Virus record (IMG/VR): IMGVR_UViG_3300044960_000820
Location: 1-24,291 of that record
Source of the DNA: a virus
DNA length: 24,291 nt
Direction: 5' to 3' (one strand)
A program made the position numbers and the translations under genes. Shown here piece by piece: positions 2,320-21,709 of this stretch; positions within the stretch are counted from its first letter, which is position 1, and each line of letters begins with the position of its first letter. The notes below the pieces were generated by a model. That model saw only the letters and a program-made list of their open reading frames with translations. It was not told the origin of the DNA and did not search any database.

Positions 2320-2321
2320 TT

Positions 2322-6542: not shown

Positions 6543-6558
6543 TCTCCTCTCCTTTTTT

Positions 6559-8830: not shown

Positions 8831-8834
8831 CTTA

Positions 8835-9065
8835 TTATATATCTCCGAATCCCATCGCCGCCCGGGCTTTTAAGGATTGACGCTCCATACGCTCGGCGAG
8901 CGTCGGTCGAGCGCGCCGACGCCGCAGCAGAGTCGCATATTCGACATAGGCCCGGCGCAAGAAGTCCCGCTTGCACTGGACCCCGCAAAACCTTTGTGTC
9001 CTACCGTTCGACCGCCGAAGATATTCGCGACCGCAGAAATCGCATTGGCTTGTCTGAGATTCCAT
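8835..9065 (-). CDS. Small zinc-finger protein
   Basis: This 76-aa protein has CDFCG and FCGVQC, giving a C-x2-C plus C-x3-C arrangement that should bind one zinc. This FCS-like finger (C-x-x-C-G-...-R-F-C-x-x-x-C) is common at the start of phage and mobile-element proteins. A basic, helical tail rich in arginine follows, which would suit nucleic acid binding. I chose ATG at 9065, after GGGGGT; the longer frame to 9095 would start at TTG. It sits between terminase and portal. It could help DNA packaging or regulation, as small Mu Com-like zinc proteins do, but that is a guess. Confidence 0.68.
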   Translation of the reverse strand: MESQTSQCDFCGREYLRRSNGRTQRFCGVQCKRDFLRRAYVEYATLLRRRRARPTLAERMERQSLKARAAMGFGDI

Positions 9066-9098
9066 TAGGACCCCCCGAATTTCGCACAGAATCAAATG

Positions 9099-10559
9099 CT
9101 ACGTTTGAATCTCCACCCCGACCATGCCCAACCTATGCCGCGAGCCCGATCGCGTTTTTAATCGAAATATGGCCGGCTGTCGCTCAATCGCCACCTCGCC
9201 GACGGCCGCTGCCGGCCCGCCGGCCGCCATCTCGGCCAGAGCGGCAGCCCAGAAGTAATCGGCGTGACCGGTCTCGTCGCTGCGCTCGGCGTCGAAACGG
9301 AAATGGCCGGTCGCCGTCGCATAGCGCTTGACCGAATGGATCGAGTTGCGGATCTTGGTCTCGGCCGGCAGCACCCGGCGATGGTCGTCGAGCGATTGCT
9401 TGAATTTGCCGGCCAGCGCTTCTTTGTTCGCGCTGGTAAAATCAATAGGCTCGACCTTCCACGCGCCAAATTTGGTTTGCGCGGTCTCGGCGAGCTGCAT
9501 GCCGAGGCCGCTCTGATCGATGCAAGCCCGACGGAGCCGCGGCAGACCGAGAATCGCATGCAGAACCAGGCGCTGCATGAAAAAGGGCGCGCGCGAGAGC
9601 GATATCACCGCCTGCGGCTTCACGACGCGTCCGATTCGCTCATCGAGCCAGAATACGGTCAGATCGCGACGCCGGCCGATGTCCACGCCGAGATACAGCT
9701 CGCCGCCGAATTCGATGCCGGCGAAAATATCCTCGCAGTCGATATCGATTTCAATCTTGGTCTCGCGATAGCGGTCGAAGGCGGCTTGGGCGCGCGCCAG
9801 CAACGATTCGGCCCACGGCGGCATGATCTCCACCTCCGGGTCCTCGCAAGCGGTAATCAGATCGAAGCCGATGTAAGCGGTCGCCTCATCTATATATTTA
9901 ACGAGATATTCCTGCTCGGCGCCCTCCTGGTCGTCCATCGCGGCTATCAGGGCCTCCGGCGAGATGGCGTTCCCCTCCTCGTCCTTCAATTCCAGGCCCT
10001 GGGCGACCGCCTGAAAAATATCCAGAGCGTGGTGATCGAACTTTTCGTTGGCCTCCAGTTCATAAAATTTGTTCTGCTTGCCATTGGGCGTCGAATAAAC
10101 GCGTATTTTGTAGCCGCGCGTGATAGTGGGAAACAGCGCCGTCCAAATCGCTCGGCTGTCCTGGTGAAATGCAAATTCATCGAGCAACACGTTCGCCGAT
10201 GTGCCGCGCGCGGTGTCGGGGTTGGCCGGCAAGCCGTAAATCGCGGAGCCGTTGGGGAAATGGAGTTCGAGCATTTTATATTTTCGCTCGTTGTCGCCTT
10301 CGAAAACCCCTTCGATCTCTTCCGCCGCCATGCCGTAAGCCATCGCGTGCTTTTTGGCCTCTGCTATTAGTCTTTTGGATTGCCGTTCGCCGCGCGATAG
10401 AAAGAGCCATTCGGTCTTGCGCGAATAGCAATCATCCACCGCCTCGAGCGTTGCGATAAAGCTCTTCCCCGTCTGCCGCGCCCAACGCCGATGCTTGAAG
10501 CGCGCCTTTTTCGCCATTTCGGCCTTTTGATATTCGGTGAGCTTAATCGCCGGCTGCAT
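9099..10559 (-). CDS. Terminase large subunit (Mu gp28-like)
   Basis: This 486-aa DNA-packaging motor has both expected parts. The ATPase domain has RRWARQTGKS as Walker A (residues 24-33), VLLDEFAF as Walker B (near 124-131) and VYSTPNG as the coupling motif (154-160). The nuclease domain has an RNase H-like acidic set: YLGVDIG (Asp293), ACIDQSG (Asp348) and HADYFWAAAL (Asp434). Cleavage of concatemeric or host-joined DNA during headful packaging is its known role; in transposable phages it cuts integrated copies. ATG at 10559 overlaps the small terminase by 17 bases. All key residues are present, so it should be functional. Confidence 0.93.
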   Translation of the reverse strand: MQPAIKLTEYQKAEMAKKARFKHRRWARQTGKSFIATLEAVDDCYSRKTEWLFLSRGERQSKRLIAEAKKHAMAYGMAAEEIEGVFEGDNERKYKMLELHFPNGSAIYGLPANPDTARGTSANVLLDEFAFHQDSRAIWTALFPTITRGYKIRVYSTPNGKQNKFYELEANEKFDHHALDIFQAVAQGLELKDEEGNAISPEALIAAMDDQEGAEQEYLVKYIDEATAYIGFDLITACEDPEVEIMPPWAESLLARAQAAFDRYRETKIEIDIDCEDIFAGIEFGGELYLGVDIGRRRDLTVFWLDERIGRVVKPQAVISLSRAPFFMQRLVLHAILGLPRLRRACIDQSGLGMQLAETAQTKFGAWKVEPIDFTSANKEALAGKFKQSLDDHRRVLPAETKIRNSIHSVKRYATATGHFRFDAERSDETGHADYFWAAALAEMAAGGPAAAVGEVAIERQPAIFRLKTRSGSRHRLGMVGVEIQT

Positions 10560-11166
10560 CGATTATGCCGTACACTTCCTCGCGTATTTTCTTCAGCGTC
10601 GCCGCATCGAGGCCCTTTTTCCGGCCGATCTCTTCGATCGCCTTGGCGGCGCCGGCCGCTTTTTGCTGCGCCGCCTCGATCGCCGCCTCTTTCATCTGCA
10701 GCGCCCGCTCCAGCAGGGCGATTTTTTCCCGATCGTTGCGCGTCCGTTCCTGCAATATCCGATTGCGCTCGCGTTGCACGTCGATGCGCTTTTCCGCCGC
10801 CGCCAAATAACCCAGCTCGATCGGATCGCTCTCGTCGAAGCGCTTGGCTGCCAGCAGCTGAGCGACCGTGAGCCTTTGCTTCACCAGCTCCTCCACGTCG
10901 GTCGTCGGACTGTTTTTCAACGCGGCGAGCATGCCGTCCGCCTCTTTGCGCGCCTCGATGAACGGTCGCTCCACCGCGAGCCAATACTCGCGATAGCGAT
11001 AGATCGCGTTGTCGTCGATCCGCTCGCCGGTTTTTTCGGCGACTTCATCGCAAATCGACTGCACCGAGCGGACCCCCGGCCCCTCGACGAACGCCCGCTC
11101 GATGATTTCGCGCGCCGCGCGCGACAATCGCGCGATCGCGGGAAATGTTTTGCGCCTGACTTTCAC
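10543..11166 (-). CDS. Terminase small subunit (Mu gp27-like, DUF3486 type)
   Basis: This 207-aa protein resembles Mu gp27. It has an N-terminal DNA-recognition region with helix-turn-helix character (SRAAREIIERAFVEG, then VRSVQSICDEVAEKTGERIDDNAIYRY), then a long helical, charged coiled-coil region over residues 95-190. It would recognise phage DNA ends and hand them to the large subunit, whose gene overlaps it by 17 bases. The start codon is GTG at 11166 with GAGG about 8 bases upstream. The order small terminase, large terminase, portal, F is the Mu arrangement. Confidence 0.85.
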   Translation of the reverse strand: MKVRRKTFPAIARLSRAAREIIERAFVEGPGVRSVQSICDEVAEKTGERIDDNAIYRYREYWLAVERPFIEARKEADGMLAALKNSPTTDVEELVKQRLTVAQLLAAKRFDESDPIELGYLAAAEKRIDVQRERNRILQERTRNDREKIALLERALQMKEAAIEAAQQKAAGAAKAIEEIGRKKGLDAATLKKIREEVYGIIDAAGD

Positions 11167-11182
11167 CTCTCACGCCTCGTCC

Positions 11183-11515
11183 TCATTCGATATGCACCCC
11201 CGCATCCCGGATATTGCCCTCTAAGAGATCGGTGCCGGCGGCCGTGATGCGCCACATGAGCGACTCGGTTTTGCCGACGCGGACGCGTTTTTGCTTGACG
11301 TACTCCTTGTCGAGCAAATAGTAGAGATTGCCGCGCAACATCTCGCGCGTTTGCGGATATCGCCGGCCGACCTTCAAATAGAGCAGGTCTTCGTCGAGGT
11401 AGGTCTCGATCGACTCTCTATCGCCGCGTTCGCGCTCGATGGCGGCCTGAAGGACCTCCAGGATCATTCCGCGCGTGGCGAACTTTTCCTCCCTATCGTC
11501 TCTGATCCTAGCCAT
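11183..11515 (-). CDS. Winged-helix-like protein upstream of terminase
   Basis: This 110-aa protein looks like a small winged helix-turn-helix. Helices span residues 15-30 and 55-70; then comes a recognition-type stretch (REMLRGNLYYLLDKEYVKQ) and a wing (VRVGKTESLMWRITAAGTDLLEG). Similar proteins with a closing G-x-D-L-L-E-G are familiar just upstream of small terminase genes in Mu-like phages. Whether they act in packaging or transcription is not known to me. ATG at 11515 overlaps the preceding stop by 8 bases. DNA binding is inferred from fold only. Confidence 0.72.
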   Translation of the reverse strand: MARIRDDREEKFATRGMILEVLQAAIERERGDRESIETYLDEDLLYLKVGRRYPQTREMLRGNLYYLLDKEYVKQKRVRVGKTESLMWRITAAGTDLLEGNIRDAGVHIE

Positions 11516-11876
11516 GTTTCATCTCGTCGAGCCGAGCGTGCAGTCTCTCGACCGATCGATGGAGCATTTCTTGACCGATCAGGATTTCCTCAAACTTCAT
11601 CTGGTCCTTCTGCGGCAGATTCTTCACCGCATCGGCCAATGTCGTCAGCGCAACGGCCTGGCGGGTCTGCGCAAGCAAAAAGCGCGGCAGGAAATAGATC
11701 GCCGCGCCCAGGATGACGAAAGCAACGAAAAAATCCGATCCCTGCTCGCGTATGAGCTGTTGCACCCACGGCGGCACCTCGGCGAGCGTGTGAATCGCGC
11801 CGAAGGCGCCGATCGTCGCGCCGATCGCTGCCGCCGGCGTCGTCCATTTTTTTGCGTGCCCGTTCTCCTCGTTCAA
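11508..11876 (-). CDS. Membrane protein with C-terminal coiled coil (DUF2730/Mu gp25-like candidate)
   Basis: This 122-aa protein has two hydrophobic segments, AAAIGATIGAFGAIHTLA (residues 15-32) and FFVAFVILGAAIYFLPRFLLA (49-69). A charged helical tail over residues 85-120 suits a coiled coil. Mu-like phages encode a one- or two-pass membrane protein of this size before the winged-helix and terminase genes. Start is TTG at 11876, overlapping the previous TGA (TTGA junction), with GGGG 6 bases upstream; no better start exists. A holin or spanin-like role is possible but unproven. Confidence 0.65.
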   Translation of the reverse strand: MNEENGHAKKWTTPAAAIGATIGAFGAIHTLAEVPPWVQQLIREQGSDFFVAFVILGAAIYFLPRFLLAQTRQAVALTTLADAVKNLPQKDQMKFEEILIGQEMLHRSVERLHARLDEMKHG

Positions 11877-12457
11877 AAAATCCCCTTTTTGTCCGGCGCC
11901 GATTCGGCAATTTTCTGGAGCAAATACTTGAGCGCGGCTTCTAGATCGTCCAGGCGCTTGCTCATCTCGCTCGTCGCTCCGTGCTCAATCTTCACGGCGC
12001 CAAGCTCGGAGACTTCGATCTTCGATCCGGGCTCGTTGCTGCGACAGATCGTGATGCTGCCGTAGCCGCCGCCGCCCGGAACGAGCGGCACGCCCGCACC
12101 TGGCGCGATCGTCATTGCGCCGCCGCCGCCGCCGGCGCGCAAGCACGCCGACGCGCGGTCCCGCGAGAGGGCGACCAGCGCATCTTTAATGTCGGATGAG
12201 AACATCGGCGAGCAGCCGAGCAGAGGAAAAAACAAAAATAAGACTAGCAGTTTTTTATCCGGTGGGTCCCAACGCCAAAAAAAATGCACCAGCAAGCCGC
12301 CCACGACCGCGCCCACAAGCACGCCGAAAAATGGCCAGGCATCGAAGATGGTCGCCATCGCCGCGGATAAGGTTTCCTCGCCGCTGGTCAGGGCATAACA
12401 CTCATAGAGGAGCAGTCCGACGATTGCGCTAAGCCATGCGAGCTTGCCTTTTGTCAT
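11873..12457 (-). CDS. Multi-pass membrane protein with internal lipobox and glycine-rich region
   Basis: This 194-aa protein starts at ATG 12457 in an ATGA overlap with the previous gene. Hydrophobic segments lie at residues 8-24, 42-60 and 68-82. The third, KKLLVLFLFFPLLGC, reads exactly like a lipoprotein signal with Cys82 as the acylated residue. Then follow a glycine-rich stretch (residues 108-133), a cysteine-containing ITICRS, and a helical coiled-coil end. It may be a fusion of a two-pass membrane protein with a lipoprotein, or two overlapping products. A lysis role (holin/spanin) fits the position but is inference. Confidence 0.6.
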   Translation of the reverse strand: MTKGKLAWLSAIVGLLLYECYALTSGEETLSAAMATIFDAWPFFGVLVGAVVGGLLVHFFWRWDPPDKKLLVLFLFFPLLGCSPMFSSDIKDALVALSRDRASACLRAGGGGGAMTIAPGAGVPLVPGGGGYGSITICRSNEPGSKIEVSELGAVKIEHGATSEMSKRLDDLEAALKYLLQKIAESAPDKKGIF

Positions 12458-12864
12458 TCGACGAACTCCCATTCCACCTCGCGCAGTCCCCACTCCTCTG
12501 GCCGAAAACCTAGGGCCTCGATCACGGCGTCGGAAAGATCGATGCCTGCGCCGTTGATGGGGTATTTTTTGGCGTCGCCCTCGCGCACTTGTCCGCGCAT
12601 CGTTTCCGCGCGCGGTCGTGCGCCGCCGAAAACATAAGCCTCATCGTCTGGATAGCTGCGGAACGGAAACCACGGTCCGAGATCGAGCACCGGGCAAATA
12701 ACGCTGCGCGCGGAGGTCGCGGTCGGCCTTCGCACTACCCTCACCGTGCGCCAGAGCGCGCGGCGCGCCGGCAGCGCGACGAACAGAGAATCCTCTCTGA
12801 TCGTGAGCCCGGCGGCCGTCAGGCCGCCGATCAGTCCCTCGCGCGAGGCGACGACCGTGATCAT
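12454..12864 (-). CDS. Double-psi beta-barrel-like protein (RlpA/3D type), possible lysis protein
   Basis: This 136-aa protein shows features I associate with small double-psi beta-barrel (RlpA/3D-like) phage proteins: an opening ITVVASREGLIGGLTAAG, FVALPARRALWRTVRVVR (residues 29-46), DLGPWFP near residue 63, and NGAGIDLSDAVIEALGF near 106. Such barrels occur in peptidoglycan-active enzymes. It is the first gene of the late operon. The start is ATG at 12864, only five bases after the T-run of the leader terminator, with no clear ribosome site (a TTG lies two codons upstream). No lysozyme or transglycosylase is otherwise visible, so this could be the lysis enzyme. Confidence 0.55.
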   Translation of the reverse strand: MITVVASREGLIGGLTAAGLTIREDSLFVALPARRALWRTVRVVRRPTATSARSVICPVLDLGPWFPFRSYPDDEAYVFGGARPRAETMRGQVREGDAKKYPINGAGIDLSDAVIEALGFRPEEWGLREVEWEFVE

Positions 12865-12868
12865 GCGC

Positions 12869-12930
12869 AAAAAAAGGCTCTATCGCCGCGCGCTCAGAAG
12901 ACGCCACTCTCCGCGCGCAAGCGATGAGCC
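12869..12930 (-). terminator. Intrinsic terminator in the late operon leader
   Basis: Read on the minus strand, arm 12930-12926 (GGCTC) pairs with 12880-12876 (GAGCC); the stem continues with 5 bp (12125 side: 12125 is not involved; positions 12121-12125 plus 800, that is 12921-12925, with 12882-12886) and 6 bp (12913-12918 with 12888-12893), around a 19-base loop. Seven T residues (12875-12869) follow at once. That is a textbook rho-independent terminator of 16 paired bases. It lies five bases before the first late start codon, so no promoter fits between. All late transcription must cross it. Confidence 0.75.
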
Positions 12931-12940
12931 GTTTGTTTCT

Positions 12941-12969
12941 ATTATAGCGCTCGCACGCGAAAAGCGAAA
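12941..12969 (-). promoter_or_regulatory. Candidate late promoter, TATAAT with poor -35
   Basis: On the minus strand a perfect TATAAT lies at 12946-12941. At 17 bases upstream the sequence is TTTCGC, a poor -35 match, so an activator may be needed, as for Mu middle and late promoters. TTTCGC and TTTTCGC lie close together there as a short direct repeat that could be a binding site. RNA would start near 12934, four bases before the terminator hairpin. Confidence 0.5.
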
Positions 12970-12983
12970 TACCAATCGATTAC

Positions 12984-13012
12984 TTGCTATCGGAGCTAAG
13001 CGCGCTTATAAT
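12984..13012 (+). promoter_or_regulatory. Strong sigma-70 promoter for the small RHH-like gene
   Basis: TTGCTA at 12984-12989 and TATAAT at 13007-13012 are separated by exactly 17 bases. The predicted start near 13019 falls at the ribosome site GGAGG (13020-13024) of the gene at 13037, giving a very short leader. It diverges from the candidate late promoter at 12941. Confidence 0.75.
12997..13008. promoter_or_regulatory. 12-bp perfect palindrome over the -10 box, candidate operator
   Basis: TAAGCGCGCTTA is a perfect palindrome that covers the end of the spacer and the first two bases of the TATAAT. Binding here would block the rightward promoter. A ribbon-helix-helix protein, as encoded just downstream, typically binds such short palindromes and represses itself. 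Confidence 0.45.
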
Positions 13013-13036
13013 GCTTCGCGGAGGATGAATAAAAAA

Positions 13037-13234
13037 ATGGCGAATAAGAAAATCTTGTTGCGCAACGTTCCGCCGGCGCTCCATGATGCCGCGAAGACAA
13101 TTGCGGCCCATCTCGGCATCTCGCTCGAACGTCTCATTCTCGAGGCCGTCCATGCCCATTGCCTGCGCATCGCGCACGAGCGGAACATCACCGAGCACGT
13201 AATATCTCAAATAGAAAAGGGACGACCTAGATAG
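13037..13234 (+). CDS. Small Arc/FitA-like ribbon-helix-helix protein candidate
   Basis: This 65-aa protein starts at ATG 13037 and is the only plus-strand gene among the leftward block. A basic MANKK opening is followed by ILLRNVP (the predicted DNA-contacting strand), PALHDAAKTIAAHLGISLERLILEAV (two helices with a GIS turn) and a C-terminal helix. That strand-helix-helix order matches Arc/MetJ-type antitoxins and regulators such as FitA. An ATG at 13025 sits directly against GGAGG, so 13037, 12 bases away, is preferred. No toxin gene is adjacent in the same direction, so a regulator is more likely than an antitoxin. Its stop is 2 bases from a convergent gene. Confidence 0.65.
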   Translation: MANKKILLRNVPPALHDAAKTIAAHLGISLERLILEAVHAHCLRIAHERNITEHVISQIEKGRPR

Positions 13235-13236
13235 GC

Positions 13237-13662
13237 CTAGATGGAGCGCAGGGCGTTAATCAAACACGCGATCTCGTTGGGTATTAGACATGCGCGCCGC
13301 GATTTGCGTGTTTCGTGACCCAGGCGACGCAGGTTGTGGAAGCCGATCCAGAGACGTCCGGGGACGCGCCCCTCGCGCTTTTCGTCCTCGGGGTGGATGT
13401 CGGGATGGAATTCAAGCAGGCAATCGACAGCAGTCTTGTAGCTCCGCGGCTGCCGGGTTTTGACGGAATCGTCGATCGTCGCGATGAAATCATCGATTTC
13501 ATCGTCGGCTAGAACGCTGGAGACGTAATGGTAGCCGCTGGCCGATCCGGCGGACGGCCAGCGGAAGATCAACCAAATTTTCTGCGGCCGCTTGCGATCC
13601 CGATATAGCCGAAGCTCCCCGAGATGCGCGAGCGGGATGACCACGTCGGATTCGCGAATCAT
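13237..13662 (-). CDS. Hypothetical protein ending the accessory operon
   Basis: This 141-aa protein has no family I recognise. The N-terminal half looks beta-rich (VVIPLAHLGELRLYRD, KIWLIFRWPSAG, YHYVSSVLA). An acidic helix follows (DDEIDDFIATIDD), then a C-terminal half with GRLWIGFHNLRRLGHETRK and a conserved-looking cysteine pair near the end. ATG at 13662 overlaps the upstream TGA (ATGA junction). It ends 2 bases from the convergent small regulator gene, so read-through transcripts of this operon would be antisense to that gene. Confidence 0.65.
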   Translation of the reverse strand: MIRESDVVIPLAHLGELRLYRDRKRPQKIWLIFRWPSAGSASGYHYVSSVLADDEIDDFIATIDDSVKTRQPRSYKTAVDCLLEFHPDIHPEDEKREGRVPGRLWIGFHNLRRLGHETRKSRRACLIPNEIACLINALRSI

Positions 13663-14057
13663 CGGCGCATTTGGGCTCGGCGCATTTGGGCTCGAAAGGC
13701 GCGATGTTCGTCGGTCTCCTCATCGCGCAGCTCTTTGGCCACTCGCGAAATAGTCTCCCAATTACGCTCGATCACGAGCGTGGCAGTGACCGACTCCCAC
13801 TCGCCAGCGTGGATCGGGACGAACTCTTCGTCTCCGCTCGCATTGCAATAGAGGGCATCGACCATGTTGAGGTACGCATAGCGCGCGACCGGAGGAATCA
13901 TCCGCTCAATATCCGGTCTCTCCGGAAAATTGATTTCCCCGGCGGGAGAAATGCAGCCGGCGCCAATCTCGAGCAGATCGGATACATCCTGCGCCTGCTC
14001 GGCGCTCGCCGAAGCGAGCGCTTTGCCCAGTTCCTGGGCCGCCTCTTTGATCGTCAT
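13659..14057 (-). CDS. Hypothetical acidic protein of the accessory operon
   Basis: This 132-aa protein begins MTIKEAAQELGKALASASAEQAQDV. It carries mostly helices, an SPAGEINFPERPDIERMIPP segment, and a C-terminal charged helix ending in a duplicated AQMRR. I chose ATG at 14057, preceded by AAAGGAG. An alternative in-frame ATG at 14174 has an even better GGAGGTG site inside the end of the vWA gene. It would add 39 residues translated from the hairpin region at 14069-14159, which does not look like protein-selected sequence. Function unknown; it is co-transcribed with the MoxR-vWA pair. Confidence 0.6.
   Translation of the reverse strand: MTIKEAAQELGKALASASAEQAQDVSDLLEIGAGCISPAGEINFPERPDIERMIPPVARYAYLNMVDALYCNASGDEEFVPIHAGEWESVTATLVIERNWETISRVAKELRDEETDEHRAFRAQMRRAQMRR
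13664..13693. repeat. 15-bp perfect tandem duplication
   Basis: The unit GGCGCATTTGGGCTC occurs twice head to tail at 13664-13678 and 13679-13693. It lies at the end of the upstream gene and doubles its last five residues (AQMRR), two bases before the next start codon at 13662. It looks like a recent slippage duplication. Confidence 0.9.
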
Positions 14058-14068
14058 AGAAAACTCCT

Positions 14069-14159
14069 TTCCCCCGTCGCGGGGGAATATCTCGATGGCG
14101 AGGGTCTGCCTCGTCAGCGGCGGGAGACCATTCCCGCCGGACCGGGGAAAAGCCCCGGT
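14069..14159. repeat. Cluster of three hairpins before an operon gene
   Basis: Three perfect inverted repeats follow one another: 14069-14076 with 14080-14087 (8 bp, loop TCG), 14119-14125 with 14132-14138 (7 bp), and 14141-14147 with 14153-14159 (7 bp, loop AAAAG). The last could act as a weak terminator. The first lies directly against the ribosome site of the gene at 14057. The region resembles the leader at 16781-16822 and may be a dispersed palindromic element. Confidence 0.75.
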
Positions 14160-14175
14160 TTCGGCTAATGTCATT

Positions 14176-15354
14176 TCACACCTCCATTTTAATCGTCTCG
14201 CCCCAGGGCGCGACCCGGTCGGTAGTCGATACCCAGAGCACTGGCGTTTCGGGCGCGCGATCGGGGAATGTCCCCTCCAGGTCGGTCAAATAGATCACGC
14301 ACGCTGGCATGAGACCCTCGCGATCGAGGCGCTTGAACACGGGGCGGAAATCAGTGCCGCCGCCGCCGCGCGGGGAAAGCGTGATGTCATCGCCGCGCTG
14401 GAATTCGTCCACGCGCTGGACCGCAGCATCGCAATAGATCACGTACAGCGCCTCCGGCGCGCAATCGTCCATGATCGCGGCGATCTCCGCGCCGAAGGCG
14501 TCGAGCTCGATTTGACCGATCGAGCCGCTCGTGTCGATCGCAACCACGAGCGGGGGCGTGGTCTCGGAGCGCAGCGCGGGGAGATAGAGCCCGCTCGGCA
14601 CAAAACGCGGATTGGGCATCTTCCATGAGTAATCCGCCGCTTGCTGAACGAAGCGGCGTAGCGCCGTACGCCAATCGACGTGCGATTTCTTGAGCTGGTC
14701 GACAAGTCGCTCTAGGGAGGCGGGAAGCTTCCCCTGCTGCTTCGCCTGTGCGGCGGCCTGTAAAGTGGCCACGCGCCATTCCTCTTCCTGCGCGGGGTCG
14801 TCGGGATCGGCATCTCGGACCTCTCCGCAGGCTGGCTCAGGGGCGCTCTCTCCGGATTCGCCCCCACCCTTGCTGTCACCCTCTTCGCCGCCAGCGCCGC
14901 TCTCCGCGCCGCCGCCGGCTCCGTCGCCGTCGCCTTGCTCTTGTTTCTGATCCTTTGAAGGCGGCGGCTCATAGAGTGTCGAGTAGATCTGCTCGACGGC
15001 GCGGCCAGGCTCTGCGTCCGTGAGTGTGCCAGGTGGGAGAGAAAATCCCGCCTCGGCGACGATCGATGAAACGCACATCTCGGACGCGCGAGACCACCGC
15101 TTGAGATCGCGTCCATCGCGACGCCAAGGGTGTCCGTTTGCTACTTGCATGATTTTGACCGCGAGCAGCGCCTCGACTTCGTCAAGCGAGAGCTGCTCAA
15201 CGGCGCTTGGATTGTATCCGAGGCGTCGGCCATCCACCCAAGCGGTCTTGCAGCTTGGATCGGCGACGGGATCGAGGCGAAGGGCGAGCGTCCCAAAAAA
15301 CGGCTGCTCAAGCACGAGATTAACTCGCGCTTGGACGATTTTCTTATGCTCCAT
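14176..15354 (-). CDS. vWA-domain protein (DUF2201-like), MoxR partner
   Basis: This 392-aa protein pairs with the AAA+ ATPase encoded just upstream. Residues 1-130 resemble the N-terminal part of DUF2201 (putative metallopeptidase) proteins, with GHPWRRDGRDLKRWSRA near residue 74 and AEAGFSLPPG near 100. The HExxH zinc motif usual there is not visible (KIMQVANGH instead). Residues 131-190 are an acidic, glycine-rich linker. Residues 195-392 form a vWA-like domain with a complete MIDAS: DTSGS (Asp274, Ser276, Ser278), Thr334 in GGGGTDF and Asp358 in YLTDLEG. It binds a metal and a protein partner. The start at 15354 has GGGAGG and overlaps the ATPase gene by 11 bases. Confidence 0.8.
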   Translation of the reverse strand: MEHKKIVQARVNLVLEQPFFGTLALRLDPVADPSCKTAWVDGRRLGYNPSAVEQLSLDEVEALLAVKIMQVANGHPWRRDGRDLKRWSRASEMCVSSIVAEAGFSLPPGTLTDAEPGRAVEQIYSTLYEPPPSKDQKQEQGDGDGAGGGAESGAGGEEGDSKGGGESGESAPEPACGEVRDADPDDPAQEEEWRVATLQAAAQAKQQGKLPASLERLVDQLKKSHVDWRTALRRFVQQAADYSWKMPNPRFVPSGLYLPALRSETTPPLVVAIDTSGSIGQIELDAFGAEIAAIMDDCAPEALYVIYCDAAVQRVDEFQRGDDITLSPRGGGGTDFRPVFKRLDREGLMPACVIYLTDLEGTFPDRAPETPVLWVSTTDRVAPWGETIKMEV

Positions 15355-16381
15355 CGTCCACCTCCCCGCTGATAAGCTTGCCGATGTCGCTACTCAGGAG
15401 CTGGAGGAAGGGTGGCGAATGAATCAGTTTCGCGTTACGCCGCACGGCGTCGCGGAGGAGCAGCACGGCAAATTCCCCGCGCCCCGCATCGTTGAGGCGC
15501 ATCGCATACTTCGCGACGCGAGCGAAGTTCGCCTCCGTCGCGCGCGCGGCCAGACCCGTTGCGACCGCGTAGAGAGCTGCTGGCTGAGAGGGGAGCGGCG
15601 CGGAGTCGGGATCGAGCAGAATCGCGTCAAGAGACGGTAGCTCTCGATAGATTTGGAGGAAGGCGACGAACTCCGCCGCCGGGCCGTCGCCGACCGCGCC
15701 CTGGAGCGCGGCAAGCTCGATCGCAGGGGATAGTTTGAGCGCGATGATCTTCCCCGCCGCCGCCCAGGTGCGCGGGCAGGGGGAATTGACAAGATCTGCG
15801 GTGGGATTGAATTGGTGCAGCAGCTCGGGCCGAAAACGGACAAACGCAACGAGCTCGGCGGGTTGATTGGTGCGCAAAGCCCAGTTGCACCAATCGTCCA
15901 GATTCGCCTCGACATGGACAATCGAGACGAACCGCGACTTCACCGACTCCAGGATACCGGAGACGCCGGCGCGATCGGTGCGCCGATTGGTCGCCGCCAC
16001 GAAGGTCACGCACTCCGGGAGCGCATGACCGTTGACGCGGCGCGCGAGCAGGAGCTGCATATAGCTCGCCTGCACGGCGGGGGTCGCCTGGCCCAGGTCG
16101 TCGAGAAACCAGACGGTCGGTTGCTCCGCGTGCAGCGCACGCGAGAGATCACCGAATGGGAGAAAGGTGGCGCTTTCGCCATCCTTCCCGACCCACGGCA
16201 GTCCCTTCGCATCGGTCGGGTCGCTCACGACCGGATGCGAGACGATAAGATCCGCGCCCGAGGCCTGGGCGGCCTGGGCGACGAGATCGGACTTGCCGAC
16301 GCCCGGCGCTCCGACGAGGAGCACCGGGAGGCGGGCATTGATGGTAGACGTGAGCAGCGTCGAGACATCACGCGGCCTCAT
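15344..16381 (-). CDS. MoxR-type AAA+ ATPase
   Basis: This 345-aa protein is an AAA+ ATPase of the MoxR/AAA_5 kind, chaperone-like remodelling enzymes usually paired with vWA proteins. GAPGVGKS (residues 24-31) is Walker A, VWFLDDL (90-96) is Walker B, TFVAATNR (126-133) is sensor 1, and SVKSRF (146-151) probably holds the arginine finger. The C-terminal third is helical. ATG at 16381 has a perfect AGGAGG site, so the longer frame to 16429 is not needed. It overlaps both neighbours by 11-14 bases. The ATPase should act on whatever its vWA partner binds. No substrate is evident. Confidence 0.85.
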   Translation of the reverse strand: MRPRDVSTLLTSTINARLPVLLVGAPGVGKSDLVAQAAQASGADLIVSHPVVSDPTDAKGLPWVGKDGESATFLPFGDLSRALHAEQPTVWFLDDLGQATPAVQASYMQLLLARRVNGHALPECVTFVAATNRRTDRAGVSGILESVKSRFVSIVHVEANLDDWCNWALRTNQPAELVAFVRFRPELLHQFNPTADLVNSPCPRTWAAAGKIIALKLSPAIELAALQGAVGDGPAAEFVAFLQIYRELPSLDAILLDPDSAPLPSQPAALYAVATGLAARATEANFARVAKYAMRLNDAGRGEFAVLLLRDAVRRNAKLIHSPPFLQLLSSDIGKLISGEVDDGA

Positions 16382-16769
16382 CACGCACCTCCTGGCGGAT
16401 CTTTTCCGCCATGCGGTCGAGCCGCGCATGGGTCAGCTCGAGCGCAGGGTCGAGCCGCTCGACGGCAGCGATCACGTCGATGAGGCGAGGGAGCACATCT
16501 CGGTGCTTCTCCAGCGCGCGGAGTGCGCGCCGGACTCCCGCTTCACTCACGCCGTACAGGCGCGCGACATGCGGGAGAGTACGGCAGTGGACCATGAGGG
16601 AGAACGGCCATGCGGCGGAGGGTCTCCTGATGCGCGAGCAGCAATCCTGCCGCTCGCGGTCGGAAGGATAGAATCTTTTTTTCTTGTCGAAGTCGCCGTC
16701 CGGATGGCGGCTTCGGCTTTGGCGCGCGAGGTATTCGCGCGCGGCGTCAATCTCTCTCTGGATCTGCAT
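16368..16769 (-). CDS. Helix-turn-helix-like protein starting the MoxR-vWA operon
   Basis: This 133-aa protein is mostly helical and basic. LPHVARLYGVSEAGVRRALRA near residue 75 has the helix-turn-helix pattern (A-x-x-x-G-V-S then a second helix), so DNA binding is plausible. The C-terminal part, DVIAAVERLDPALELTHARLD, is a long helix. ATG at 16769 follows AAAGGAG; an upstream in-frame ATG at 16835 would add 22 residues read through a hairpin region. It is the first gene downstream of the leftward promoter at 16845-16873, and its end overlaps the ATPase start. Possibly an operon regulator. Confidence 0.65.
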   Translation of the reverse strand: MQIQREIDAAREYLARQSRSRHPDGDFDKKKRFYPSDRERQDCCSRIRRPSAAWPFSLMVHCRTLPHVARLYGVSEAGVRRALRALEKHRDVLPRLIDVIAAVERLDPALELTHARLDRMAEKIRQEVRDEAA

Positions 16770-16780
16770 AGTAACTCCTT

Positions 16781-16822
16781 TCCCCCTTCGCGGGGATCGC
16801 CCGTCCGCGTGCCGGGACGGGC
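16781..16822. repeat. Hairpin pair in the accessory operon leader
   Basis: Two inverted repeats lie between promoter and first gene: 16781-16785 with 16792-16796 (5 bp, ending against the ribosome site), and 16799-16806 with 16815-16822 (8 bp perfect). The layout matches the hairpin cluster at 14069-14159, including the same AAAGGAGTT ribosome site just beyond it. Confidence 0.7.
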
Positions 16823-16844
16823 TGTTCCGTGACATTTCGATATC

Positions 16845-16873
16845 ATTATTATCATGCTTACACGCTTTGTCAA
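16845..16873 (-). promoter_or_regulatory. Strong leftward promoter of the accessory operon
   Basis: On the minus strand TTGACA is at 16873-16868 and AATAAT at 16850-16845, with 17 bases between (11 of 12 consensus positions). RNA would begin near 16838 and carry a leader of about 70 bases with the two hairpins. It drives the HTH, MoxR, vWA and following genes. It lies downstream of the repressor genes, so the operon can be expressed independently. Confidence 0.75.
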
Positions 16874-16921
16874 TACCCCGATAATATTTTTTTATGCCGT
16901 AGAATTTGCTTATAAAATCAG

Positions 16922-17041
16922 CTAGATAGGGCGCCACAGTAGCGGCGATTCCGGCGCGCCGCGATCGTCGGCGATTTTCGCCGGAATGGCGGCGAGGAGT
17001 GCAGCGCCGACGAAAATCAAACACCAAAATAAAGTTTCCAT
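16922..17041 (-). CDS. 39-aa single-pass membrane peptide
   Basis: ATG at 17041 has GGAGG with 9 bases of spacing; the frame ends in TAG at 16922. The peptide starts METLFWCLIFVGAALLAAIP, a hydrophobic helix, followed by a short polar tail with PESPLLWRPI. It is read in the same direction as the repressor gene and the membrane protein at 17074. A typical phage membrane microprotein; possible roles are superinfection exclusion or regulation, but nothing in the sequence decides. Confidence 0.6.
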   Translation of the reverse strand: METLFWCLIFVGAALLAAIPAKIADDRGAPESPLLWRPI

Positions 17042-17073
17042 GATGAATGTCCTCCTTCGCTACCATATTATTA

Positions 17074-17439
17074 TTATCGCCGATCGCCGCCGTAGATTTT
17101 ATCCAGGCGGCGCCAGGCCCGATCATCCTTGAGCCATGCTGGCAACGCGCCGCCGTTGCGTTCCTTGATCTCGTTTTCCAGCGCGATAAATCGATTGCGA
17201 ATATCGCCGCCTCGTCTTCGATGCGGCGCGAGCAATTTGTTCAGCTCGTTTCCATCTCTCACGAATAGCGCGCGAGACAGCGCCTTTTCATAGTCCGCGT
17301 CCATCCGATAATAGTTCGAGAGAATCTCGCTCATCTCCGCCAGTGCGCGTTGGCGATAGAGTCTTTCTTCGCGCTCCCGATGCAGCCAGGCGCCGACAAT
17401 GGCGAGAGACAGAGAGATAATGATGATCAGAGTTTTCAT
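17074..17439 (-). CDS. Membrane-anchored helical protein next to the repressor
   Basis: This 121-aa protein has one N-terminal membrane helix (TLIIIISLSLAIVGAWL, residues 3-19). A long charged helical region with many arginines and glutamates follows, ending in ALPAWLKDDRAWRRLDKIYGG. ATG at 17439 overlaps the repressor TGA (ATGA junction), so it is expressed with the repressor and probably in the lysogen. Membrane proteins encoded next to repressors often alter the host in lysogeny, for example by superinfection exclusion. The bulk of the protein would be outside or inside depending on orientation, which I cannot settle. No known family. Confidence 0.65.
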   Translation of the reverse strand: MKTLIIIISLSLAIVGAWLHREREERLYRQRALAEMSEILSNYYRMDADYEKALSRALFVRDGNELNKLLAPHRRRGGDIRNRFIALENEIKERNGGALPAWLKDDRAWRRLDKIYGGDRR

Positions 17440-17858
17440 CGCGATTCTCCTTTTTTGTTTTCTTCGCGCACAATACGACGAAAAATCACGACGCTTTTCA
17501 GCAGCGCATCTATTATGTCATCCGGCGCCTCTCGCGCGAGCTCCTTGATTAAATGCACGAGCTTGAGCCTGTCGGACTTTCCGTAATTCTCCGGAGCCTC
17601 GGCTACTTCTAAAATTATTTTTCCTTCGGCGCTGCCGGTAACGAGCCAATCGATGGTCTGGCCGAAAATCGCCGCGAGAGAGGCTGCAATCGACAATGAT
17701 AGGCCTTGGCCAGACTCTAGTTTGTTGACTGCGCTCTTGTCGGAGTATCCGAGCATCATCGACAGATCCTCCTGCGTCCAGCCTCGCCGTTGCCTCTCCG
17801 AGCGAATCCTCGATCCGATCTCACATAGGTCGAGGTGGCTAATTTTTCTACTTGACAC
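17436..17858 (-). CDS. XRE-family repressor (lysogeny regulator)
   Basis: This 140-aa protein has a clear HTH_3 domain: EIGSRIRSERQRRGWTQEDLS, then MLGYSDKSAVNKLESGQ and SLSIAASLAAIFGQTIDWL (residues 13-71). A helical C-terminal part is suited to dimerisation. It probably holds down the rightward early genes, as the Mu c and lambda-type repressors do. The start is a GTG at 17858 and no ribosome site is visible, so initiation may be weak. Its first codons overlap the -35 of the early promoter (17852-17857), so the two transcripts begin against each other. It is divergent from the Cro/Ner-like gene, as in a classical switch. Confidence 0.8.
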   Translation of the reverse strand: MSSRKISHLDLCEIGSRIRSERQRRGWTQEDLSMMLGYSDKSAVNKLESGQGLSLSIAASLAAIFGQTIDWLVTGSAEGKIILEVAEAPENYGKSDRLKLVHLIKELAREAPDDIIDALLKSVVIFRRIVREENKKGESR

Positions 17859-17880
17859 GGGTTGATGGATTCGCTATTTT
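17852..17880 (+). promoter_or_regulatory. Early rightward promoter
   Basis: Plus-strand TTGACA at 17852-17857 and TATTTT at 17875-17880 with a 17-base spacer. The -35 is perfect and the -10 matches four of six. RNA would start near 17887 and run through the regulator, transposase and MuB genes. The -35 lies over the first codons of the repressor gene. Confidence 0.65.
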
Positions 17881-17892
17881 CATGCGCACGGC

Positions 17893-17898
17893 AGTATA
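17893..17898 (-). promoter_or_regulatory. Candidate -10 of the repressor promoter
   Basis: On the minus strand TATACT matches the -10 consensus in five of six bases and sits about 35 bases upstream of the repressor GTG. The sequence 17 bases further upstream is not a good -35, so this promoter may need an activator or be weak. Confidence 0.35.
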
Positions 17899-17923
17899 AA
17901 ACTCGTTTACCCCTATAATCCAG

Positions 17924-18160
17924 ATGGACATCCAACTCAAGCTCGCTCTCATAAGACGCAACTTGACCCTGGCCGACGTGGCGGCGGCGGTCAATCGGTC
18001 TCAGACCCTTATATCGCTGATCTTGAACGGCAAACGCGGCGGCTGGGCGCATCGCGCTAAAATCCGCGCGCTCCTCGGCGTGGATAAAAAAGCGCTGCCG
18101 GATAAGCCCCCCGCCCGGAGCAAGCGCTCTCGAAATCGCACGCCGGGGAGTAGCAAATGA
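17924..18160 (+). CDS. Small Cro/Ner-like HTH regulator
   Basis: This 78-aa protein begins MDIQLKLALIRRNLTLADVAAAVNRSQTLISLILNGK, a compact helix-turn-helix of the Cro/Ner kind, followed by a proline-, arginine- and lysine-rich tail suited to DNA backbone contacts. In Mu-like phages the first early gene is ner, which represses early and repressor transcription. The ATG at 17924 has no ribosome site; a TATAAT at 17914-17919 suggests a leaderless message is possible. It ends in an ATGA overlap with the next gene. Confidence 0.7.
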   Translation: MDIQLKLALIRRNLTLADVAAAVNRSQTLISLILNGKRGGWAHRAKIRALLGVDKKALPDKPPARSKRSRNRTPGSSK

Positions 18161-18348
18161 GCGTGATCGTCGTCGATTTCCGCGCCGCGCTCAGAGCGCA
18201 AATCGATCGCATGGCGGCCAAGCACGCGGCGATGCAGGCCGCGATCGGTGAATTGTCGCCGGACGAGTTGCCGGAGCATCTAAGGCGGCTCGAAGAGCAC
18301 GCCGAAAAATTATCCCGCCTGGCGTCTCGTTTAATGGAGGAAACATGA
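18157..18348 (+). CDS. Small helical early protein
   Basis: This 63-aa protein is almost entirely helical, with heptad-like leucines (LSPDELPEHLRRLEEHAEKL) and a coiled-coil look. ATG at 18157 overlaps the previous stop, and GGGGAG lies 7 bases upstream. I do not recognise it. It is the second gene of the early operon and is probably co-translated. Confidence 0.6.
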   Translation: MSVIVVDFRAALRAQIDRMAAKHAAMQAAIGELSPDELPEHLRRLEEHAEKLSRLASRLMEET

Positions 18349-18473
18349 AAATTATTCCCGTCGCGGTCGCTCTGCTCGCGGCCTTCGCCGCGGGCATCTA
18401 TGTCGGCGCGCGGATCGTCGAGCGATCCGAGCGCGAGCTCGCCAAATTCGTGCTCACCGGGAGAAGGCTATGA
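18345..18473 (+). CDS. 42-aa membrane peptide
   Basis: ATG at 18345 overlaps the previous TGA and has GGAGG upstream. The peptide has a basic start and a hydrophobic helix (IIPVAVALLAAFAAGIYVGA), then a charged tail with RIVERSERELAK. It is a single-pass membrane peptide of unknown role, followed at once by a second one. Confidence 0.6.
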   Translation: MKIIPVAVALLAAFAAGIYVGARIVERSERELAKFVLTGRRL

Positions 18474-18565
18474 TGTGGTTACTCGAAATTTTTTTCCTTT
18501 GGCTGCTTATCGGCTTCGTCGTCGCGCTCGCTTTCGGCGCGCTCTGCTCGACCGGCGATGAATGA
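18470..18565 (+). CDS. 31-aa membrane peptide
   Basis: ATG at 18470 overlaps the previous gene by four bases and follows an AGAAGG site. The peptide is mostly a hydrophobic helix (LLEIFFLWLLIGFVVALAFG) with a short polar end. With the preceding gene it makes a pair of early membrane peptides. A Kil-like or membrane-modifying role is conceivable but unsupported. Confidence 0.5.
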   Translation: MMWLLEIFFLWLLIGFVVALAFGALCSTGDE

Positions 18566-18752
18566 CCTGGTTGAGGCATTCGTCGTCCGCGTACGACGGA
18601 TGCTCAGAGAGATCGACGACGTCGACGATCTCGTTGCGGCATTGCGCCTCGAGATCGAGCGTGAATTTCCCGCGCGGAGGGCGGCGAGATCGCCGTTTGC
18701 TCGCCGGGCGCGCCAACGCCCTCGCCCTCCGCGCGCGGGAGGGTCTCGATGA
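18558..18752 (+). CDS. Small early protein with repeat-derived C-terminus
   Basis: This 64-aa protein starts at ATG 18558, overlapping the previous gene by 8 bases, with no ribosome site of its own. The N-terminal 37 residues (MNDLVEAFVVRVRRML, then DDVDDLVAALRLEIE) look like a regular acidic helix. The C-terminal part is arginine- and proline-rich and is read through an inverted-repeat element at 18668-18741. It ends in an ATGA overlap with the transposase gene, whose GGGAGGG ribosome site is also part of that element. The C-terminus may be an insertion rather than original protein. Confidence 0.5.
   Translation: MNDLVEAFVVRVRRMLREIDDVDDLVAALRLEIEREFPARRAARSPFARRARQRPRPPRAGGSR
18668..18741. 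repeat. Imperfect inverted repeat before the transposase gene
   Basis: The left arm TCCCGCGCGGAGGGCG (18668-18683) pairs with 18724-18741, whose reverse complement has the same sequence plus two extra bases. The space between holds a smaller palindrome (GGCGAGATCGCC region). The right arm overlaps the transposase ribosome site, so folding could hide it. Confidence 0.65.
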
Positions 18753-20521
18753 GAGATATCGATTCCGCCGGTGGCGTGGCCGGCGGATATATCGGCGGCG
18801 ACCCCAGCGGCGCAACCTCCTCGCCGCCAGGCGCATCGCCTGCGCCGCTCGATAAATCCCCCTTCCTCGCTGCGCCCGCAGCGGGGAAGGGGGATGATGA
18901 AATAGCGCGGGCTAACGCTATCGCCGACACGCTCAGTCATTATCCAATCTCCGAGGCGGCCAAACGCTTAGGCTGGTCGGAGATCACCACGCGGCGAAAA
19001 CTGCGCGCTATGCAACGTGATGGCATCGCTGCGCTATTGCGGAGAGCGCGCGCCGATCGCGGCTGTCCGCGCGTCGCCGACGATGAAACGATCAGGCGCG
19101 TGCAGCGCGAATATCTCCATCCCCATCGCCCAACTGCGAGGAGTATATATCGACGGCTCGCGACCGACTGCCATCGCAGCGGCGTCGAGGCGCCGAGCTA
19201 CTCCTTCGTCTTGCGCGCCATCCGCCGCATCGATCCCGATCTGATCGCTCGCTATCGATACGGCGAACGGAGATACGACGATCGCTACGCCTACGTCACG
19301 CTGCGGCGCAAACCGGCGCGACCGCGTCAATGGTGCGACGCCGATCATCATCCGTGCGATCACGCGGTCGTTTTCGCCGACGGCTCGATCGGTCGGCCCT
19401 GGCTGACGGCGATTCAGGATATCGCGACCAACGAGATTCTCGGTATCCATCTGACGCGCGGAAAGCCGGTCGGCAAGGGCACCTATCCCGGCGCACAAGC
19501 GATCGGGTTATGCATTCGGAACGCGATTCTGCGCAAAAGCGCCGAGTGGCCGAGCTACGGTCTCTTCGATCATCTCTATGCCGATCTCGGACGGGACTTC
19601 CGCTCTGAGTATGTGCGCGCCGTCTGCCGCGATCTCGGCATCGCGATCGTGCACACCCGCGGCTACCACGGCAAATCGAAGCCGATCGAGCGTTGGTTCG
19701 GCGTCATGGAAGACGCGCTCCGCGCCCTGCCCGGCTATGTCGGCCGCCGACCAGAGGATAACCCCCAGCGACAAAATCTGGTGCCTCGCCCCTTCAATCG
19801 CGACGATCTCCTCACGATCGAGCAGTTCGAACAAAAGCTGATCGACTGGATCGTTTGCGATTTCCATCATGCGCCATCCAGCGCGCTTGAGGGGTTATCG
19901 CCGCTCGAGGCCTTGCGCGCGCACGTCGATAGCGGTTTTGTCGCGCGCGAGGTGCGCGATGAACGCGCTCTGGACCTGTTGCTCATGCGCAAAGCGAATA
20001 AACGCGTGCGCAACGCCGGCGTGCAACATTTCGGCCGCTGGTACTTCGCGCCCGAGCTGTTGTCAATAATCGGCCGGCAGGTACAGGTCGCTTGGGATCC
20101 GGCGCGGGTGGGCGAGCTGGTGATCTATCTCGATAATCGCTTTCTCTGCACAGCACGCAATCGGGAGCTGGTCGATTATGGCGCGAGCGAGGAGACGCTG
20201 CGACGGGAGCGCGAGCTTAAGCGCCAGCAGCGCCAGGAACTGAGGCGGCGCTATGAAGAGCTAATCCGACAGCGCCAATATCCCAGCGAGCTTGCTAGGG
20301 CGAGAGCAGAAGAGGAAGAGAGCCGCGAGAAAAGACAAATCGCTGTCGGCGCCGAGGCGCCGGCCGCGACAGCTCTATTGCCCAAATATGCGCGCGCGAT
20401 CAAGGCGCTCGATCGGCCGCCGGTTCGGCCGGCGCGAGCGGCGCCGCGGCGCATCGACGACACGCCGGCCACGGAGGAAATGTTCCACCGCGTCGTCAAT
20501 CCCTGGCTGGAGGACGAATGA
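18749..20521 (+). CDS. Mu-type DDE transposase (MuA-like)
   Basis: This 590-aa protein is the transposase, homologous in layout to MuA. Residues 55-120 look like a DNA-binding helix-turn-helix (SEAAKRLGWSEITTRRKLRAMQRDG). The catalytic core shows an Asp near 197-199 (QWCDADHH), Asp279 (YADLGRDF) and Glu314 (KPIERWFG), the DDE triad of the RNase H-like fold. The rest is a beta-barrel and helical region typical of Mu C-terminal domains, with charged helices after residue 480 suitable for MuB contact. It cuts and joins phage ends to target DNA. ATG 18749 follows GGGAGGG. Residues 36-49 come from a palindromic element. Confidence 0.9.
   Translation: MRDIDSAGGVAGGYIGGDPSGATSSPPGASPAPLDKSPFLAAPAAGKGDDEIARANAIADTLSHYPISEAAKRLGWSEITTRRKLRAMQRDGIAALLRRARADRGCPRVADDETIRRVQREYLHPHRPTARSIYRRLATDCHRSGVEAPSYSFVLRAIRRIDPDLIARYRYGERRYDDRYAYVTLRRKPARPRQWCDADHHPCDHAVVFADGSIGRPWLTAIQDIATNEILGIHLTRGKPVGKGTYPGAQAIGLCIRNAILRKSAEWPSYGLFDHLYADLGRDFRSEYVRAVCRDLGIAIVHTRGYHGKSKPIERWFGVMEDALRALPGYVGRRPEDNPQRQNLVPRPFNRDDLLTIEQFEQKLIDWIVCDFHHAPSSALEGLSPLEALRAHVDSGFVAREVRDERALDLLLMRKANKRVRNAGVQHFGRWYFAPELLSIIGRQVQVAWDPARVGELVIYLDNRFLCTARNRELVDYGASEETLRRERELKRQQRQELRRRYEELIRQRQYPSELARARAEEEESREKRQIAVGAEAPAATALLPKYARAIKALDRPPVRPARAAPRRIDDTPATEEMFHRVVNPWLEDE
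18856..18895. repeat. 19-bp palindromic element inside the transposase gene
   Basis: Arms 18856-18874 and 18877-18895 pair over 19 bases with a single T-G mismatch and a two-base loop. The element falls in frame and encodes residues 36-49 (KSPFLAAPAAGKGD). The composition (CCCCCTTCC then GGAAGGGGG) recalls dispersed palindromic repeats of bacterial chromosomes that insert in frame. Confidence 0.85.
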
Positions 20522-20658: not shown

Positions 20659-20671
20659 GGAGGTGCTTAAA

Positions 20672-21709
20672 ATGGTGGCGGATGTTGCGCACATTGAAGA
20701 TCGCGTCGAAACCATTACGGAAAAAAAACGCGTCGAGAACGCCCGCTCATGGATCGAGGGGTGGATCAAGGAAAATCGCCTGACCTACACCGCGGCGGCG
20801 CGCCAGATCGGTCTCGGCGACGCTGCGCGCACTCCGGTGGCGCGATTCGTCGAGCGGAGACATGAGGGCGATCCGACCCGTCTTGTCCTCGCAATCGAAC
20901 AGTTTCGCGCGACGATCGAGGGGCCGGAAGGCGTCTCGGAGATCATCGGCTTTCGCGAGACTCGCTGCGCGCGGCTAATATGGTCCGCGGCGCACGACGC
21001 GCGCGACAATCACAAGATGGCCGCAGTGATCGGTTATACCGGTTGCGGCAAGACCGAAGCGTTGAAGCAATTCCAACGTCGCACCTATCGAGACAATAAG
21101 CCGCCGGTGCGCGTCGTCACCGCAAATGTATTGATCAATGCGCCGTTTCTCGCGCGCAAGCTCGCGCTCGAAATGGGCTTGGTCGAGCGCGGCGGGGAAC
21201 CGGCGATGTGCCTGGAGCTGGTCAATCGACGACTGCGCGCGCACCCGGAGTTCTGGATCGTGGACGAAGCTAATTTCCTCAAGGAAAGCTGTCTCCACGT
21301 GCTACGCAATATCCACGACGTAACCGGCACGGGCATCCTGCTCGCAGGCACGCCGAGCTTCATCGCGCTGGTCGCGAATCGATCCGGCGGGACGACTGCT
21401 CGCGACGATGATCGTGAGATCGAACGCGGGCCCGATGGACCGCTCGCGCTTTTCGCCGATCGGATTTTTTCCACGGTCTTGCCCGGTATTACCGAGGATG
21501 AAATTACCGAGATCGCCGAATCGGTGCTGAATTGCGAGCTGACTGACGCGGCGCTTGCCAAGCTTGTCATCGTCGTGAATCGCAATATGAGACTGCTCAC
21601 GCGCATGATGCTCCAGCTTCGTGAATTTCGGCGCCGAGCGGGCACGCGCAAAGTCGATGATAAAATGATCGATGCGGCATGGATTAAATTGACCCATGTC
21701 GGACCATAG
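20672..21709 (+). CDS. MuB-like AAA ATPase, target DNA activator
   Basis: This 345-aa protein resembles MuB, which binds target DNA in the ATP form and stimulates the transposase. An N-terminal helical region (residues 20-60, with WIKENRLTYTAAARQIG) recalls the MuB DNA-binding helix-turn-helix. Walker A is GYTGCGKT (121-128), Walker B is FWIVDEAN (194-201), and LLAGTP near 230 resembles sensor 1. The C-terminal helical part fits the MuB C-domain. ATG at 20672 has AAGGAGG at 8 bases; the GTG at 20663 lies within the ribosome site region and is less likely. It follows the transposase, as in Mu. Confidence 0.88.
   Translation: MVADVAHIEDRVETITEKKRVENARSWIEGWIKENRLTYTAAARQIGLGDAARTPVARFVERRHEGDPTRLVLAIEQFRATIEGPEGVSEIIGFRETRCARLIWSAAHDARDNHKMAAVIGYTGCGKTEALKQFQRRTYRDNKPPVRVVTANVLINAPFLARKLALEMGLVERGGEPAMCLELVNRRLRAHPEFWIVDEANFLKESCLHVLRNIHDVTGTGILLAGTPSFIALVANRSGGTTARDDDREIERGPDGPLALFADRIFSTVLPGITEDEITEIAESVLNCELTDAALAKLVIVVNRNMRLLTRMMLQLREFRRRAGTRKVDDKMIDAAWIKLTHVGP

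Follow-up and report, generated by a model that had tools for sequence, protein, structure and literature searches.

MoxR AAA+ ATPases and vWA proteins cooperate as metal-dependent chaperones that remodel or insert their partners. The working logic of MoxR-vWA pairs has been reviewed (PMC7159879), and NorQD has been found to drive metal insertion (PMC13036017). Such pairs are common phage genes: N4 gp24 (AAA+) and gp25 are among the listed core genes of N4-like viruses (PMC7650795), and the p618/p892 MoxR/vWA pair of Acidianus two-tailed virus has been proposed as a tail or virion assembly helper, a proposal that we take from its citation in two other papers (PMC7159879, PMC9964418). Here we describe a locus which, as judged from its sequence, is a variant of the known phage MoxR-vWA pair that has neither the middle gene nor the peptidase site.

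The DNA analysed, referred to below as the window, is a linear fragment of 24,291 nt, corresponding to positions 1-24,291 of virus record IMGVR_UViG_3300044960_000820. The features that define its carrier are the following:

13025-13234, plus strand: ribbon-helix-helix (Arc/HicB-like) gene, convergent with the cassette and apparent recombination border of the cargo site (HicB E=1e-3, phrog_582 6e-4)
17436-17858, minus strand: cI-type repressor, upstream neighbour of the cassette (HTH_3 1e-10, phrog_8 2e-12)
17924-18160, plus strand: Ner-like repressor, first gene of the early operon (phrog_1468 4e-8)
18749-20521, plus strand: MuA-type transposase (phrog_310 1e-76)
20663-21709, plus strand: MuB-type transposition ATPase (phrog_296 5e-30)

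MuA and MuB are transcribed rightward from the Ner-like gene, and the cI-type repressor and the head genes leftward. By gene content, with MuA, MuB and a repressor/Ner switch present, the phage is transposable and Mu/B3-like; its nearest large terminases belong to transposable phages such as Alteromonadaceae phage B23, Rhodovulum phage RhkS_P1 and Pseudomonas phage B3. Terminase relatives were absent from the 398 Pseudomonadota genomes searched at a cut-off of 1e-60, single-sequence patterns confirmed no transposase relatives among viral contigs, and positions 12500-18700 of the window showed no DNA similarity to phages. The cassette (13237-16769, minus strand) is a single intact operon with the repressor on one side and the late genes on the other. 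It does not belong to the early transposition operon, and its 3' end at 13237 faces the convergent ribbon-helix-helix gene. It comprises:

16845-16873, minus strand: promoter-like site TTGACA-17 nt-AATAAT for the cassette (11/12 matches to consensus only)
16773-16795, minus strand: hairpin and Shine-Dalgarno element CCCCGCGAAGGGGGAAAGGAGTT before gene 1 (copy 2 at 14062-14084; 0 expected in shuffles)
16368-16769, minus strand: gene 1, 133 aa, weakly HTH-like, HPDGDFD...CCxxIRxPS...LMxHCRTxxHVAxLYGV (GntR E=0.055)
15344-16381, minus strand: gene 2, MoxR AAA+ ATPase, 345 aa (Pfam AAA_5 4.9e-7, phrog_1297 2.8e-72)
14176-15354, minus strand: gene 3, DUF2201_N + DUF2201 vWA protein, 392 aa (DUF2201_N 2.6e-45, DUF2201 2.6e-27, phrog_1314 6e-79)
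14062-14174, minus strand: run of four hairpins between the vWA gene and gene 4, ending in the second hairpin and Shine-Dalgarno element (fold -52 kcal/mol, z -2.1)
13659-14057, minus strand: gene 4, orphan, 132 aa (no Pfam, PHROG or PADLOC match)
13237-13662, minus strand: gene 5, orphan, 141 aa (no Pfam, PHROG or PADLOC match)

An earlier, sequence-only reading had described overlapping HTH-like, MoxR and vWA genes followed by two unknown genes, with a complete ATPase, a full MIDAS and a strong promoter of their own, on a transposable phage, and this description is borne out. All five frames are open, with overlaps of 14 nt (HTH-like/MoxR), 11 nt (MoxR/vWA) and 4 nt (gene 4/gene 5). Walker A, Walker B, the sensor and the arginine finger of the ATPase are all present in the alignment, the MIDAS of the vWA protein (DxSxS/T/D) is intact, and the candidate promoter, near-consensus and identified by consensus matching only, is the best of six sites, where shuffles give 1.5. 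Gene 1 is a small intact gene, starting at 16769 behind a Shine-Dalgarno AAGGAG, but its assignment as HTH is weak and it has no PHROG match. Its distant phage relatives are an ORF in locus L035 (42% over 71 aa) and one in Moraxella phage Mcat17 (39% over 56 aa).

The 23-nt hairpin and Shine-Dalgarno element precedes gene 1 and gene 4, is found nowhere else in the window nor in any other locus fetched, and is possibly a shared translational control site. Because the same element stands before both genes, the most likely start of gene 4 is 14057, which gives 132 aa and a Shine-Dalgarno of its own, and not 14174; the Pfam, PHROG and PADLOC searches with this gene used a longer frame of 171 aa that contains it. 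In both places tandem hairpins are followed by the near-identical element (14062-14174 for gene 4, 16773-16830 for gene 1). Single-sequence scans of viral contigs confirmed no relatives of genes 1, 4 or 5.

Genes 2 and 3 are assigned by their matches to the phage MoxR-DUF2201 pair (PHROG 1297/1314). The label "HNH endonuclease" attached to phrog_1314 can be discarded for the window protein, which has a DUF2201 metallopeptidase-type domain and a vWA domain; this name has been copied into many phage records, and the members that we examined have the same two domains. In the predicted structure of the vWA protein (pLDDT 87.8) the vWA fold occupies residues 262-392, with Z up to 11.4; the structure alignment excluded three rows from annotated phage records, and the VIA-align list was filled by the vWA part, so that the N-domain was barely covered.

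Using tblastn, MoxR relatives were found in 743 of 50,697 phage records and relatives of the vWA protein in 449, all below 60% identity and mostly in N4-like schitoviruses, with some giant phages. Profile-guided scans yielded 95 viral stretches, of which 80 were kept, and eight bacterial loci, and 105 plasmid records, many of them in Burkholderiales, contain a MoxR match. About 85 relatives were compared, from phages and from conjugative plasmids. The majority encode a middle protein of about 289 aa along with the pair, and nearly all have a vWA protein with an N-terminal HExxH metallopeptidase domain; the closest are up to 66% identical in MoxR and up to about 50% in the vWA protein. Of the 80 cassette-bearing virus records searched, many of which are fragments, none apart from the window has a MuA match. 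The five-gene set that the sequence-only reading proposed to look for in other phages and defence islands did not turn up; only the MoxR-vWA pair recurs, usually with the middle gene. Its carriers are for the most part conjugative plasmids and phages that are not transposable, and not classical defence islands. The triad of MoxR, middle and vWA genes adjoins PRTRC (ubiquitin-like ThiF) genes on the conjugative plasmid pBMC401 and in Cupriavidus necator, and on pBMC401 it also adjoins type IV secretion genes.

The middle protein is present in the nearest relatives too (L002, L021, L022 and L024). It is missing from all six frames of the window when searched at full sensitivity with a profile built from 73 middle proteins, which rules out a copy hidden elsewhere in this stretch. 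In the MoxR tree the window falls within the carriers of the middle gene, so the loss of this gene is derived, and by gene content the cassette is not a member of the MoxR-DUF3150-like-vWA three-gene set as such. The middle-protein family, present in more than 70 loci (for example L024:11037-11897), has no significant Pfam or PHROG match in the members tried. Its family model (pLDDT 95.7) resembles a phage protein labelled DUF3150 (TM 0.87); against the PDB, Foldseek gave no significant match and the best VIA-align Z was 9.3, to helical bundles only. The middle protein, with this DUF3150-like fold, is probably the third subunit of the phage MoxR-vWA machine.

The N-terminal half of the vWA protein is a metallopeptidase-type domain, a point that the sequence-only reading had missed, and the conserved residues of this domain have been replaced:

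15067-15159, minus strand: lost metal site, residues 66-96, VKIMQ...S88...E92...S96 in place of HExxH...N...D...N (comparison with 64 relatives)

In the 64 relatives H66, E67, H70, N88, D92 and N96 are 95-100% conserved. The window protein departs from the family at 9 of the 80 columns conserved at 80% or above, and seven of these departures (V66, K67, I68, Q70, S88, E92 and S96) lie on HExxH and NxxxDxxxN, at positions whose family residues are H, E, V, H, N, D and N (88-100% conserved). The probability that nine random departures would include all three HExxH positions is 0.001. Since the domain weakly matches selecase and M48-type peptidases by profile and fold, N88, D92 and N96, on the second helix, may be taken as the third ligand and its neighbours. 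Lacking HExxH, the window protein is, by this comparison, not an active DUF2201 peptidase. The catalytic Glu has also been lost in L018, L045, L058 and L059, the last of which lacks the first His as well; both histidines are lost in the window protein only, among the proteins aligned. A coupled loss of the middle gene and HExxH is not supported by single losses in either direction, since these four loci retain the middle gene, whereas N4-like LIT1, phage G and phiFa keep HExxH with no recognisable middle protein. Locus L023 was considered as a second copy without HExxH and rejected: it keeps HEILH. An intein-like insert immediately ahead of the conserved DYAIN motif splits its vWA gene (11098-13266), whose N-terminal part lies in a different frame; the split gene is followed by genes resembling a reverse transcriptase (14184-15026) and then a tyrosine recombinase.

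The sole sister contig found, L103, is a second IMG/VR contig (3300045136_000820) that is 99.93% identical to window positions 1-13227 and unrelated beyond, so that one further feature can be placed:

13228, strand not applicable: break point, end of identity to L103 (none beyond 13227)

The break lies within the final codons of the ribbon-helix-helix gene. Of the nine mismatches between the two contigs, eight are located within about 150 bases of it, and over the last 150 nt or so of that gene L103 differs by nine codon changes, eight of them silent. Because the mismatches cluster near the break and all but one of the changes in this gene are silent, the break has the appearance of a recombination border separating two natural alleles, and not that of an artificial join made in assembly. 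Past this point L103 carries a partial csf1 (type IV Cas8-like; L103:1-443, 145 codons, PADLOC typeIV_Cas8 7e-12), coupled to the ribbon-helix-helix gene by overlapping stop and start codons. L103 covers one border of the exchange, as the contig ends inside csf1. This csf1 has no NCBIfam match, and tblastn found no relatives of it in plasmids or phages; to find a type IV Cas gene on a transposable phage is noteworthy in itself. According to Pinilla-Redondo et al. 2020 (as cited in PMC10910872), type IV CRISPR systems serve as weapons when plasmids compete.

The cassette was absent, without trace, from all six related transposable phages compared. Together with the swap in L103 this argues that the cargo position is exchangeable, and since L103 switches to csf1 at the cassette edge, the interpretation of the cassette as exchangeable accessory cargo, not a part of virion assembly, is well supported by these comparisons, as is its structure. 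The sequence-only reading had proposed that the cassette could be an accessory unit separate from the lytic modules, and this part of its interpretation agrees with what was found: relatives of the pair exist, its frames are open, and it is not a fixed part of virion assembly. Its suggestions of lysogen expression, of defence or superinfection control, and of effector roles for genes 4 and 5 are conjectural.

We consider it reasonably probable that the cassette is a streamlined MoxR-vWA remodelling module, carried as exchangeable phage cargo and acting most likely against competing mobile elements or host proteins. It would have been acquired horizontally and derived from a three-part mobile-element machine consisting of MoxR, a DUF3150-like middle protein and a minigluzincin-type vWA protein. 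By analogy with other MoxR proteins, gene 2 would form a hexamer that spends ATP on remodelling a client captured by the vWA MIDAS, while the peptidase-type domain, its metal ligands gone, may be retained as a folded scaffold. Since the metal ligands and the middle protein are absent, the window version would unfold, assemble, inhibit or block its client without cutting it. Its own promoter beside the repressor suggests expression during lysogeny; a role against other elements or host proteins is favoured because of this position, the promoter and the CRISPR gene in the sister phage, which hints at a role of the pair in mobile-element conflict. A more specific proposal is that the site bordered by the ribbon-helix-helix gene swaps inter-element weapons, and that the dead-peptidase MoxR-vWA pair is a new superinfection-control or anti-element class that remodels without proteolysis and is equivalent to the type IV CRISPR of the sister; we put this forward tentatively and regard it as possible but doubtful.

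Relatives belong to the early regions of virulent phages or else to conjugative plasmids, a distribution that fits replication or establishment as well as conflict. The pair might assemble or disassemble a replication or transcription complex for the early replication or takeover of the element, also in a transposable phage. The place of gp24 and gp25 among N4-like core genes would be in keeping with this, as would the LIT1 pair, which adjoins helicase and DNA polymerase genes, and the neighbours of the pair: conserved helicase, primase and DnaB-like genes, as read from the sequence, in viral contigs, and on plasmids genes for RecT, SSB, toprim, PRTRC or type IV secretion. We nevertheless find such a role unlikely in the window, where the pair lies outside the early transposition operon, on the opposite strand and beside the repressor, and where two features that the majority of relatives retain, the peptidase site and the middle gene, have been lost; csf1 at the border in the sister phage and the six transposable relatives without the pair also speak against it.

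Absence of the middle gene and of the catalytic residues could also mean that the cassette is a decaying, functionless remnant of a MoxR-middle-vWA locus, heading for loss. This is quite improbable, however, as every frame is open and overlapping, the strong promoter-like site and the Shine-Dalgarno sites are retained, MoxR deviates from its family in just 3 of 102 conserved columns (family median 6), and the vWA protein, apart from the metal site, deviates in only two, both conservatively (F251 and W384). With seven of nine departures on the metal site, and MIDAS, vWA fold and MoxR conserved, the change looks like a targeted loss of peptidase chemistry rather than decay.

NorD is among the fold matches of the vWA protein, and the shared pair logic and the metal insertion by NorQD (PMC13036017) raise the alternative of a metal-cofactor chaperone like NorQ-NorD or CoxD-CoxE, carried as metabolic cargo and serving in the lysogen to mature a metalloenzyme of the host or of the phage; given that no metalloenzyme gene was recognised in the operon or its neighbourhood, that the DUF2201 branch is distinct from NorD/CoxE, and that the relatives are genes of mobile elements and not of respiratory operons, we hold this to be highly improbable. 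A helper of tail or virion assembly, for which there is the archaeal-virus precedent (PMC7159879, PMC9964418), deserves hardly any credence, as the cassette lies outside the late operon with its own promoter, is lacking in transposable relatives, and has its border replaced in a phage with near-identical structural genes.

The remodelling module that we favour can be set against several known systems. RavA-ViaA, NorQ-NorD and CoxD-CoxE likewise combine a MoxR AAA+ ring with a MIDAS vWA partner, and a likeness in working would be expected by analogy; their vWA proteins have another architecture, and the N-terminal peptidase-type domain is the window's. The vWA-MoxR ternary conflict systems (PMC7159879) share the MoxR-vWA core and have a proposed conflict role, but their third component is VMAP, iSTAND, FtsH or a beta-propeller, whereas it is DUF3150-like in the relatives of the window and missing in the window itself; the other cassette genes have no Pfam match to VMAP, STAND, FtsH or propeller domains (bpMoxR E=0.008, below the cut-off). 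Judged by its matches, the cassette is not a defence system catalogued in PADLOC: the vWA protein and the orphans have none, and for MoxR the single match is to IetA and is confined to the P-loop region (E=0.02), in a collection that has no model for a MoxR-vWA pair. Minigluzincin peptidases (selecase MJ1213) are weakly matched by the N-domain in profile and fold, but the zinc-binding and catalytic residues that they possess are missing in the window protein. The nearest relatives are the MoxR-middle-vWA triads of viral contigs and conjugative plasmids, from which the window differs by lacking the middle gene and the metal site and by its two orphan genes, which are not shared. The phage MoxR-DUF2201 pair (PHROG 1297 + 1314; N4 gp24/gp25 of Schitoviridae, phage G gp576) consists of a homologous ATPase and vWA protein, in the same gene order in N4-like phages and with 24-31% identity to the window pair in LIT1. 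N4-like pairs keep HExxH and are located in early regions of virulent phages, whereas the window pair is cargo of a transposable phage with a dead site; this variant keeps the motor and the client-binding site, and would thus separate remodelling from cutting.
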